From Sphaerisporangium rufum (lineage in GTDB: Bacteria; Actinomycetota; Actinomycetes; Streptosporangiales; Streptosporangiaceae), in contig NZ_BOOU01000054.1 in assembly GCF_016863395.1 (NCBI RefSeq), forward strand, positions 1 to 64,000: DNA of 64,000 nt, written 5' to 3'. Positions 10,447 to 43,837 of the stretch are shown piece by piece; positions within the stretch are counted from its first letter, which is position 1, and each line of letters opens with the position of its first letter. The notes under the pieces are model-generated. The model had not been told where the DNA came from and did not search any database. It worked only from the letters and a program-made list of their open reading frames with translations. A program made the translations under genes and the position numbers.

Positions 10447-10956
10447 ATGACCACGGGAGGTATCAGCAGGATGCTGGAGCCCGTATCCGCGGCCCAATGC
10501 CTGGAGCTGACCCGCCGGATGGGCTTCCGAAGCCTGATGAGATCCGGCAACCGCCATGACGCCACCAGCTGCCCGCTGCGCCCTCAGGCCGACTCGGTCA
10601 AGACGGCACGCGACGTCACCCGGACCACCCTGCGCGGCTGGGGCCTGCCGGAGATCGGCGACGACGCCGCCCTGGTGGTCTCCGAGCTCGTGACCAACGC
10701 CGTGCGCTACACCCGGCACTCGATCGTGCGCGCGGGCGAGCACCCGATCACCCTGACGTTGCTGCGCCTGGCACCGCACGTGCTGCTCGCGGTGTCCGAC
10801 CCCAGCGACGAGGCGCCGGTGGCCAAGGAGCCCGACTTCGTCTCCGAGCACGGCCGCGGCCTCTACATCGTCGACACCTACAGCACCTGCTGGGGCTGGG
10901 ACCCGCTCGACGGCGGCGGCAAGGCCGTGTGGGCCATCTTCGACGCCGGAGCCTGA
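10447..10956 (+). CDS. RsbW-like ATP-binding regulatory protein
   Basis: GHKL-fold ATPase of the anti-sigma-factor/serine kinase type. The N-box is ELVTNAVRYTR at about residues 80-90 and the G1 box is HGRGLYIVDTYS at about 138-149. The ADSVKTARDVTRTTLRGWGL segment before the N-box is typical of the short actinobacterial HATPase_c proteins encoded beside XRE-DUF5753 regulators. The protein is 169 residues. The ATG at 10447 has GGAG 9 bases upstream; a second in-frame ATG at 10471 is possible because the first 45 residues are poorly conserved in type. No sigma factor or anti-anti-sigma gene is nearby. Confidence 0.85.
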   Translation: MTTGGISRMLEPVSAAQCLELTRRMGFRSLMRSGNRHDATSCPLRPQADSVKTARDVTRTTLRGWGLPEIGDDAALVVSELVTNAVRYTRHSIVRAGEHPITLTLLRLAPHVLLAVSDPSDEAPVAKEPDFVSEHGRGLYIVDTYSTCWGWDPLDGGGKAVWAIFDAGA

Positions 10957-41676: not shown

Positions 41677-43698
41677 TCACCGCCGGGCGTCCAGCTCCCG
41701 GCGGATGTCGGGGTCGTCAGGGTCGAGGTCGCGGGCCCGGCGGAGATCGGCCAGGGCCTCGGCCGGCCGGCCGAGGTCGCGCAGCGCGACCGCCCGGTTG
41801 TAGTAGAGCGCGGCGTCCTGGTCCACTGCGATCGCCCGGGTCAGGTCGGCGACGGCCCCGTCCAGGTCACCGGTCTCGTACCGCAGGGCCGCCCGGCCGG
41901 CCCAGGCCGGCACCAGCGCGGGCGCCGCGGTCAGGGCGTCGTCGAAGGCCGCCCGCGCCGCGGCGAACCGTCCGGCGGCGGTCTCGAGCTGGCCGAGCAC
42001 GCAGCACAGGTACGCGTTGCCGGGGTCCAGGGCCAGCCCGGCCAGCACGTCGGCCCGCGCCTGCTCGGGCCGGCCGAGTTCGGCCAGCAGTCCGGCCCGG
42101 TTTATGTACGCGTCCAGGTACTCGGGATCGAGCTCCAGCACCCGGTCCAGGTCGGCGCGGGCCGCCTCGCGGTCGCCGGTCGCCAGCAGCAACTGGGCCC
42201 GGTTGTAGTGTGCCTCGGGCAGCGGCGGGCTCAGCCGGATGGCGGTGTCGTAGTCGGCCAGCGCGTCCTGGATCCGGCCGAGTTGGAGCAGCAGGTTGCC
42301 GCGGTCCAGGTGCTGATCGGGGTAGACCGGGTCCATCGCGACCGCCGCGTCCATCTCGGCGAGCGCCTCGCCGGGATGCCCCAGCATCCCGAGCAGTTGG
42401 GCGCGGTTGGCGCGCAGGATCATCCGGTGCACCAGGTGGCGGCCGGGCGGCAGGTCGGTCTCGGCCAGCTTGATCGCCGATTCGACCAGGGTGAGCGCCT
42501 GGTCCAGGTGCCCCTCCCGCATCTCGATGAGCGCCTTGCCGTTCAGGTCGAACCCGAGCTTGAAGGCGCGTACCGCCGGATCGGGCAGCAAGGTGGAGAT
42601 GGCGATGGCCTCGTTGATCCACCCCTGGGCCCGGCCGAGGTCGCGGCGCGCCCGGTCCGGGTCGCGGGCGTCCAGCATGGCGGTGGCGTAGGCGGACGCC
42701 GAGTGCACCTCCGGGTCCAGGCTGGTACGGCGGGCGTCGTCCAGCACCTCGCGGGCCTGCCGGCGGTGGCCGAGTCCGGCCAGGGCGGTCGCGGTCCCCT
42801 GGCTGAGGTTCCACCATCGCCGGCCGCCGGGGGTGGCGAGCCGCAGCCCGCGCCGGCCGAGGTCGGCGGCGGCGTCCAGGAATCCTTCCTGCATGCAGTG
42901 GTCGAGCGCGGCCCACAGCGCCGCCACCCCGGCCCCGGCCGGGTCGCCGCCGTGCTCGCGATGGTAGGGGATGGCGCCGAGCGTCCAGGCGGGGTCACCG
43001 GTCGCGGCCAGCTCGTCGGCGCGCCGGTCGTGCAGCCGTGCCCGCTCGGCCGGTGGCAGTTCCCGGTATCGGGCGAGAGCTCGGGGATCGTCCAGCGTGC
43101 CGTCGGCGGCGACGAACAGCGCGCCGAGGTTTTCCGGTTCCGCCACAAAAGCGGATTCGGCCGCTATCAATTGGCCGCGGAATTCGTCCCATGGCTCCTT
43201 GCCGGAGCACACGACAATTGTCAGATCCGCCGGCGAGAAACGCCGGATAAGGGTGGCCAGAAGTTCCCGGTCCGTCTCGTCCGCCTGATCGACGTTCTCC
43301 ACCACGACGGCGCGCGGTGCGGTCCCGCAGTCACGGACGAACTCGGCGATCCCGTTGGCGATCCGCAGGGTACGGCGCGGCGCCGGCACCAGGATCCGCT
43401 CCTCGTCGGGGAGCCGGGTGTAGAGGGGCTCGCGCCGGGGCGGCACCTGGTCCCGAAGGCCGGGTGCCGCCGCGCGGATCTCGATGTCGTGCTCGGCCAC
43501 CACGCCGGGCGCATGCTCCAGGGTGGCCGGTACCAGGGCCTGGAGCAGGGCACCGCCGAAGGTGTACGGTCCGCGTAGCCGGCGGTGCGCGTCGAAGACG
43601 GGTGCGGACCGGCGGCCCGGGTCGAGCGAGGCGAGCACGCCGCGACGATCCCGGGCGCATCCGCCGTACACCCAGAGGTGCCGGGGTTCGATGATCAG
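41677..43698 (-). CDS. TPR-repeat protein with ATPase-like N-terminus
   Basis: About 673 residues. The C-terminal 330 residues are at least seven tetratricopeptide repeats (for example AHYNRAQLLLATGDREAARA, then YLDAYINRAGLLAELGRPEQ). The N-terminal 200 residues resemble a STAND/AAA ATPase: AVVVENVDQADETD looks like Walker B, and an HTH-like middle follows, but the P-loop position reads RRLRGPYTFGG with no GxxxxGK, so ATP binding is doubtful. The start is uncertain: the CTG at 43698 overlaps the stop of the upstream peptide gene (CTGA), and the GTG at 43671 is the next candidate. Role is probably protein-protein interaction or regulation together with the peptide. Confidence 0.75.
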   Translation of the reverse strand: MIIEPRHLWVYGGCARDRRGVLASLDPGRRSAPVFDAHRRLRGPYTFGGALLQALVPATLEHAPGVVAEHDIEIRAAAPGLRDQVPPRREPLYTRLPDEERILVPAPRRTLRIANGIAEFVRDCGTAPRAVVVENVDQADETDRELLATLIRRFSPADLTIVVCSGKEPWDEFRGQLIAAESAFVAEPENLGALFVAADGTLDDPRALARYRELPPAERARLHDRRADELAATGDPAWTLGAIPYHREHGGDPAGAGVAALWAALDHCMQEGFLDAAADLGRRGLRLATPGGRRWWNLSQGTATALAGLGHRRQAREVLDDARRTSLDPEVHSASAYATAMLDARDPDRARRDLGRAQGWINEAIAISTLLPDPAVRAFKLGFDLNGKALIEMREGHLDQALTLVESAIKLAETDLPPGRHLVHRMILRANRAQLLGMLGHPGEALAEMDAAVAMDPVYPDQHLDRGNLLLQLGRIQDALADYDTAIRLSPPLPEAHYNRAQLLLATGDREAARADLDRVLELDPEYLDAYINRAGLLAELGRPEQARADVLAGLALDPGNAYLCCVLGQLETAAGRFAAARAAFDDALTAAPALVPAWAGRAALRYETGDLDGAVADLTRAIAVDQDAALYYNRAVALRDLGRPAEALADLRRARDLDPDDPDIRRELDARR

Positions 43699-43769
43699 CC
43701 CTTGTGGATCGCGCTGGCCGAACCGGACAGGCGTGCGACGCCGGGTTTGCGGACGGTGATCTTCTTCAT
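43695..43769 (-). CDS. 24-residue basic peptide gene upstream of the TPR gene
   Basis: Starts at an ATG at 43769 with a perfect AGGAGG ten bases upstream and a plausible promoter at 43808-43837. The product starts MKKITVRKPGVARLSGSA and ends SAIHKG. A basic leader-like N-terminus is followed by a Ser/Gly/Ala-rich end. Its TGA stop overlaps the likely start of the TPR gene, so translation is coupled. This layout recalls precursor peptides of ribosomally made modified peptides or a translational leader, but no maturation enzyme lies next to it. The peptide family is not recognised. Confidence 0.6.
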   Translation of the reverse strand: MKKITVRKPGVARLSGSASAIHKG

Positions 43770-43807
43770 TGGCGGGTGGCCTCCTCAGATCTTGAAGTAC
43801 ACCGACC

Positions 43808-43837
43808 CTATTATTCGGACAAATCCATAATGCGCAA
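43808..43837 (-). promoter_or_regulatory. Putative promoter of the peptide-TPR operon
   Basis: On the minus strand TTGCGC and TAATAG are 18 bases apart in a locally AT-rich patch, about 40 bases upstream of the peptide ATG. The patch separates this operon from the GNAT gene before it. Inferred from sequence only. Confidence 0.45.

Follow-up and report, generated by a model that had tools for sequence, protein, structure and literature searches.

The window analyzed here, a 64,000-nucleotide stretch of the Sphaerisporangium rufum genome (positions 1 to 64,000 of contig NZ_BOOU01000054.1, assembly GCF_016863395.1), contains a 24-residue peptide gene, MKKITVRKPGVARLSGSASAIHKG followed by TGA (43695..43769, minus strand), upstream of the gene for a tetratricopeptide repeat (TPR) protein, 673 amino acids long when counted from the codon aligned with the homologs' start. 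Open reading frame (ORF) reading, homolog searches, and codon-level selection indicate that the peptide is a gene, far beyond a chance frame, and comparison across genomes indicates that the peptide and the TPR protein together form the unit. On balance, we favor the interpretation that the locus is a two-gene operon whose products are a short peptide resembling a leader and its binding partner, the TPR protein, and that the peptide would act as a working ligand without any maturation protease.

Codon-level comparison supports the conclusion that the peptide is under purifying selection at the amino acid level. Across 20 homologous peptide genes, the ratio of nonsynonymous to synonymous polymorphism (pN/pS) was 0.30, and within the 11 Sphaerisporangium it was 0.20; shifted frames of the same 20 genes gave values of 1.48 and 1.45. 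Third codon positions were the most variable, with 9.0 differences per pair versus 3.9 and 3.1 at the other positions. A preliminary description of this locus, drawn from the sequence of the window, had called the 24-residue gene and proposed its third-codon pattern and its conservation upstream of homologous TPR genes as tests. The pattern proved to be nonrandom, the frame is conserved in 78 of 80 loci (see below), and the gene is evidently real.

The peptide also co-occurs with the TPR protein. Of 60 relatives, 22 had a match to the peptide (E ≤ 0.1) and 23 to the TPR protein (E ≤ 1e-30), and 21 had both. The only genome with a peptide match and no TPR match (G046) had a weak hit (E 0.04) that we treated as chance, and in the two TPR-only genomes (G023 and G035), the peptide was found on reading the loci themselves (L086 and L075). 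When 394 genomes of the class were searched, 19 had a TPR match at 1e-60, and exactly these 19 had the peptide at E values below 1e-6. The remaining 43 of the 62 matched genomes had only weak peptide matches (E 0.002 to 0.05), none accompanied by a TPR match, and these were likewise counted as chance. A scan of named genomes with the TPR alignment yielded 358 candidate stretches, of which the best 80 loci were retained; they come from Sphaerisporangium, Microbispora, Planobispora, Nonomuraea, Streptosporangium, Streptomyces, Kitasatospora, Lentzea, Amycolatopsis, Nocardia, and other genera. A family peptide lies upstream of the TPR gene in 78 of the 80, and the other two (L203 and L204) are cut by contig ends. 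These two were dropped from the class counts that follow, which cover the window plus the 78, or 79 loci with a peptide. Outside this set, no recognizable peptide was found at the loci of two TPR homologs (L074 and L087). Gene calls placed no TPR gene next to four peptides (L063, L073, L123, and L130), and each of the four genomes carries a TPR homolog elsewhere; a peptide at a contig end (L134) was left out of this orphan count. Given purifying selection, genome co-occurrence, and a conserved place upstream of TPR genes, we rejected the possibility of a chance frame.

Two variants of the arrangement were observed. Nonomuraea soli carries two tandem peptide-plus-TPR pairs (L221, 5849-9450). 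At L151 (5914-8193), the peptide and TPR protein are in frame with each other, with a single TGA between them and no usual start codon shortly after it, which may reflect a sequencing indel, an odd start, or read-through.

The 79 peptides fall into three classes. Class A1 (28 rows, including the window) ends in IHKG, class A2 (23 rows) ends in K/R-H-x-x, and class B (28 rows; 25 to 40 residues in total) has the same leader followed by a variable end. In the window's branch, the class-A peptide is nearly constant up to its IHKG end. On a tree of 81 TPR rows (quick method, midpoint root), each peptide class occupied one side of a branch, requiring two changes, the minimum possible; none of 200 shuffles of peptide class on the tree gave a number that low. 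The split between A and B extends to gene content and to individual residues: a third gene lies between the peptide and TPR genes in all 28 class-B loci versus 0 of 51 class-A loci, the window included. A Cys follows residue 18 in every class-B peptide (28) versus 1 of the 51 class-A peptides, and residue 22 is His in 51/51 class-A peptides and Tyr in 23 of the 28 class-B peptides. By organism names, class B is spread widely over actinobacterial orders (Streptomyces, Kitasatospora, Lentzea, and Amycolatopsis, among others) and class A is confined to its own genera, all of which (51 loci) we take to be placed in Streptosporangiales. This wide distribution of B and narrow range of A suggest that class A lost the third gene, a predicted protease, rather than that class B gained it.

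Several class-B and related loci were informative in their own right. In Candidatus Stackebrandtia excrementipullorum (L182, 3419-4748), at least five consecutive class-B peptide genes with differing Gly/Cys tails are followed by one protease gene and one TPR gene. The genome from which the window comes also holds a class-B locus (L056, 4283-11708), comprising genes for a SARP-like regulator, the peptide MKKITIRKVGPVRLTAAACSIYKNVN, the third protein described below, a TPR protein, and a flavin oxidoreductase-like protein; the regulator and oxidoreductase were assigned by clustering with L060, a locus from the same genus as the window, where the neighboring genes encode a BTAD/NB-ARC regulator and an NADH:flavin oxidoreductase. 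Upstream of position 10740 (minus strand) of L090 lies the peptide MRKMTVRRKSAVRLLSGARRLWIEWCW, whose end is rich in Trp and Cys; the TPR homolog that follows has no adjacent protease gene in the gene calls. A Streptomyces plasmid locus (L232) has a divergent peptide frame and was left out of all counts.

The third protein of class B is predicted by structural modeling to be a recognition element for ribosomally synthesized and posttranslationally modified peptides (RiPP recognition element, or RRE) fused to a site-2 (M50-like) membrane protease. The RRE was revealed only by the predicted fold: by sequence profile, no PqqD/RRE match was found in Pfam up to E 10 in 9 protease members, and an RRE was absent from the 4 solved-structure hits obtained up to E 10 in a profile search with the class-B protease. 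Six genomes with a class-A peptide and TPR homolog contained no RRE-protease at E ≤ 1e-10. SARP-type regulator genes are present in 12 of 28 class-B loci (clusters c19 and c36, both represented at L195), and one member of each cluster has a BTAD domain by Pfam. In 6/28, a flavin reductase gene lies directly 3′ of the TPR gene (cluster c30, a member of which matches Flavin_Reduct). More distant RRE-protease relatives (L225 to L231) occur in genomes with and without the peptide-TPR system, several of them next to large genes that resemble regulators or, at L229 and L231, next to a second short frame of ∼360 amino acids. Short frames beside these seven relatives were examined for daptide-like motif patterns, and none carried the patterns searched.

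Upstream of the window's peptide gene, an AGGAGG ribosome-binding site (43780..43785, minus strand) lies ten bases 5′ of the ATG. Farther upstream on the same strand are a TTGCGC −35-like box (43832..43837) and an AATAAT −10-like box (43810..43815), which are spaced 16 bases apart and end 40 bases from the ATG. Of the 11 Sphaerisporangium upstream sequences compared, all retain TTGCG and 10 retain ATAAT (the single exception is G009); both boxes are looser in the rest of the peptide family. The plausible promoter that the preliminary description had placed 40 bases upstream corresponds to this pair of boxes, but a generic sigma-70 consensus scan listed no promoter site upstream of the peptide gene, including these boxes. 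That description had also noted that the peptide TGA overlaps the best TPR start. The TGA does overlap the codon at which TPR homologs start in the alignment; counted from there, the TPR gene would run to its stop at 41677 (41677..43698, minus strand). The overlap reads CTGA in the window versus GTGA in 25/27 other class-A1 loci. The noted start is right by position, yet its codon in the window, CTG, is a rare one, and the window's actual start may be either this CTG or the first ordinary start after it, the GTG at 43671.

Such an overlap, together with the peptide's own ribosome-binding site, could mean that the short frame is a translational leader or coupling device that only sets the rate of TPR translation, an option raised in the preliminary description. 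However, selection acts at the protein level, with third codon positions the most variable; a whole protease gene intervenes in 28 of 28 class-B loci; the 4-base overlap with the TPR frame is missing in 15 of 23 class-A2 loci; and the four orphan peptides are kept without an adjacent TPR gene. These observations together disfavor a mere translational leader, which we consider very improbable.

The TPR protein ends in a TPR array (41713..42405, minus strand), supported by Pfam, by an A2 profile that matches solved TPR proteins, and by a superhelix in the structural model described below. Its N-terminal region contains a Walker-B-like segment (43225..43383, minus strand) defined by a subthreshold AAA_16 match (E 0.0028; 18.6 bits versus a cutoff of 32.6; residues 155 to 207 of the 722-amino-acid ORF). 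The P-loop pattern [AG]xxxxGK[ST] was found in 0 of 81 homologs within the first 220 amino acids of the matched part. The absence of a P-loop noted earlier is thereby extended to the family, while the degenerate ATPase domain proposed alongside it, resting otherwise on the subthreshold match, is plausible only. In lacking the Walker A motif within this stretch, the 81 homologs also depart from STAND/AAA_16 nucleoside triphosphatases (NTPases).

A model of a homolog (L175), translated as a single chain from its peptide across the natural stop and spacer and on into the TPR protein, had a mean predicted local distance difference test (pLDDT) score of 88.5, with 615 of 764 residues at or above 90. 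The score averaged 92 over the first ten peptide residues, and residues 15 to 77 scored below 50 (disordered linker). An extended stretch with such a high pLDDT is usually packed against something, and the predicted placement of these residues is thus a hint that peptide residues 1 to ∼14 dock on the TPR protein. Structural matches to the model lie mainly over residues 325 to 764, with at least a fifth of them confined to that span, and none were obtained for the N-terminal region. The superhelix is similar to TPR domains whose structures were determined together with peptides, LGN and KLC1 among them. The confident first ten residues and the near-constant class-A sequence would also fit a small structural subunit, in which the peptide would be built permanently into the TPR fold and have no role in signaling or as a product. 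This explanation accounts neither for the sister branch, with its RRE-protease and variable Cys tails, nor for the conserved C-terminal half of the peptide, which the model does not place, and we judge it quite improbable.

Adjacent genes for a short peptide and a TPR protein recall RRNPP systems and raise the possibility of cell-cell signaling in which the peptide is exported, reimported, and read by the TPR protein. RRNPP receptors have an N-terminal helix-turn-helix (HTH) or Rap-type output domain. In contrast, neither an HTH nor another DNA-binding domain appears among 25 of the 30 Pfam families matched by the TPR protein, reaching E 0.13, and the protein has instead an extra N-terminal region that is putatively a degenerate NTPase-like one. 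By inspection, the peptide has no secretion signal or hydrophobic segment; the class-A peptide end is little diversified; the next gene downstream of the TPR gene in the window is on the opposite strand; and RRNPP systems belong to Firmicutes, unlike the actinobacterial loci described here. Signaling would be aided in class B by the predicted site-2 protease, which could free the tail. In a minority of class-A loci, a gene of the major facilitator superfamily (MFS) lies 3′ of the TPR gene: 2 of the 51 counted loci (L164 and L179), not including the window, and also L071, L075, L119, L122, and L140 (of these, L075 and L140 were assigned because they resemble scanned members). At L164 (8068-9339), L119 (3896-4702), and L122 (3386-4636), the MFS gene directly follows the TPR gene and matches the Pfam family "transmembrane secretion effector." These genes are a hint of export at those loci and weigh against our interpretation of the peptide as an intracellular ligand. 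Even so, we regard RRNPP-like signaling as improbable.

A different possibility is that the class-A peptide is a RiPP precursor. In this case, enzymes with genes elsewhere would modify its SASAIHKG end, perhaps at His22 or at Ser/Thr residues, a general peptidase would release this conserved product, and the TPR protein would be the leader carrier. The Ser/Gly/Ala-rich end of the peptide is compatible with this, as is the homology of its leader to class-B peptides, which have an RRE-protease and often SARP-type regulators or flavin enzymes. Nevertheless, neighbor clusters, the functions of most of which were left unscanned, revealed no recurrent modifying enzyme family beside class-A pairs beyond chromosomal synteny; the peptide end is near constant, unlike a diversifying core; and the RRE-protease is missing from the six class-A genomes noted above. 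We therefore hold a class-A RiPP precursor to be unlikely.

Among described RiPPs, daptides offer a close comparison for class B. As described in PMC10036551, the daptide protein MpaP is an RRE fused to an intramembrane site-2 protease, and daptide precursors carry an ELExMEAP motif and a C-terminal Thr. Class-B loci in Actinomycetota have the same predicted RRE-site-2-protease architecture near a short peptide. There are several differences: the RRE-site-2 protease is lacking at the window locus (0/51 class A; 28/28 class B); the window peptide ends in Gly without ELExMEAP; a terminal Thr and the motif are each absent from all 79 peptides; and the constant partner is a TPR protein. Three class-A2 peptides outside the 79 (L071, L122, and L140) do end in Thr but without the motif. 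The daptide feature set also includes oxidative decarboxylase, aminotransferase, and methyltransferase genes. In pearlin and epipeptide systems, TglG, TmoG, and EpeP are membrane M50 proteases that mature ribosomal peptides (PMC10885120). The role is the one proposed for the class-B protease, and class A, to which the window belongs, has no such protease. Neither "TPR" nor "tetratricopeptide" occurs in the main text of PMC10885120. The peptide-TPR system shares some features with RRNPP pairs and with daptide-type maturation but has the full defining set of neither.

Actinomycetes also contain FxSxx-COOH systems, which pair a short peptide with a TPR protein. The window peptide ends in IHKG rather than FxSxx, and no such model is among the 21 NCBIfam matches listed for the TPR protein. 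A defense system was considered and rejected: for the TPR protein, the only PADLOC hit was to a PrimPol model, through the TPR region, and the class-B protease had none. No Pfam or NCBIfam model matches the window peptide, and no NCBIfam model matches eight class-B peptides. In a public plasmid record, the proteins of a class-B-like locus are annotated as hypothetical and TPR. Literature searches by terms and by six peptide fragments turned up no description of the system among the papers listed, with most subscription papers outside their coverage.

We infer the following roles for the two branches. In class B, the RRE-protease would grip the conserved leader (about residues 1 to 22), the variable Cys-containing tail would be cut off at the membrane as the product, and the TPR protein would serve as leader carrier or scaffold. 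In class A, the N-terminal half of the peptide would be bound by the TPR protein, and the peptide would be a ligand that switches or completes its partner, probably inside the cell. Since class A has neither protease nor tail and its peptide is near constant, the peptide itself is most likely the working part. The suggestion in the preliminary description of a precursor or signaling peptide with its receptor or carrier is supported in outline by amino acid-level selection, co-occurrence, and matching phylogeny, and by the leader-binding protease predicted in the sister branch. More tentatively, these loci may represent an undescribed actinobacterial class of ribosomal peptides defined by a TPR leader-binding protein, one vertically kept branch of which has neither maturation protease nor product tail and uses the leader as an intracellular ligand, a leader turned regulator; we put this broader proposal at rather less than an even chance.

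A peptide gene unmodeled in the curated libraries searched here is kept under selection with a protein partner of ∼670 residues. Through its relationship to a family in which a leader-binding protease is predicted, branches with and without the protease can be compared in nature, alongside a defined peptide and its candidate binder. How leaders are recognized, and whether one can turn into a signal, can thereby be tested directly, and the class-B loci in Streptomyces, Kitasatospora, Lentzea, and Amycolatopsis are candidates for an uncharacterized class of ribosomal peptides.
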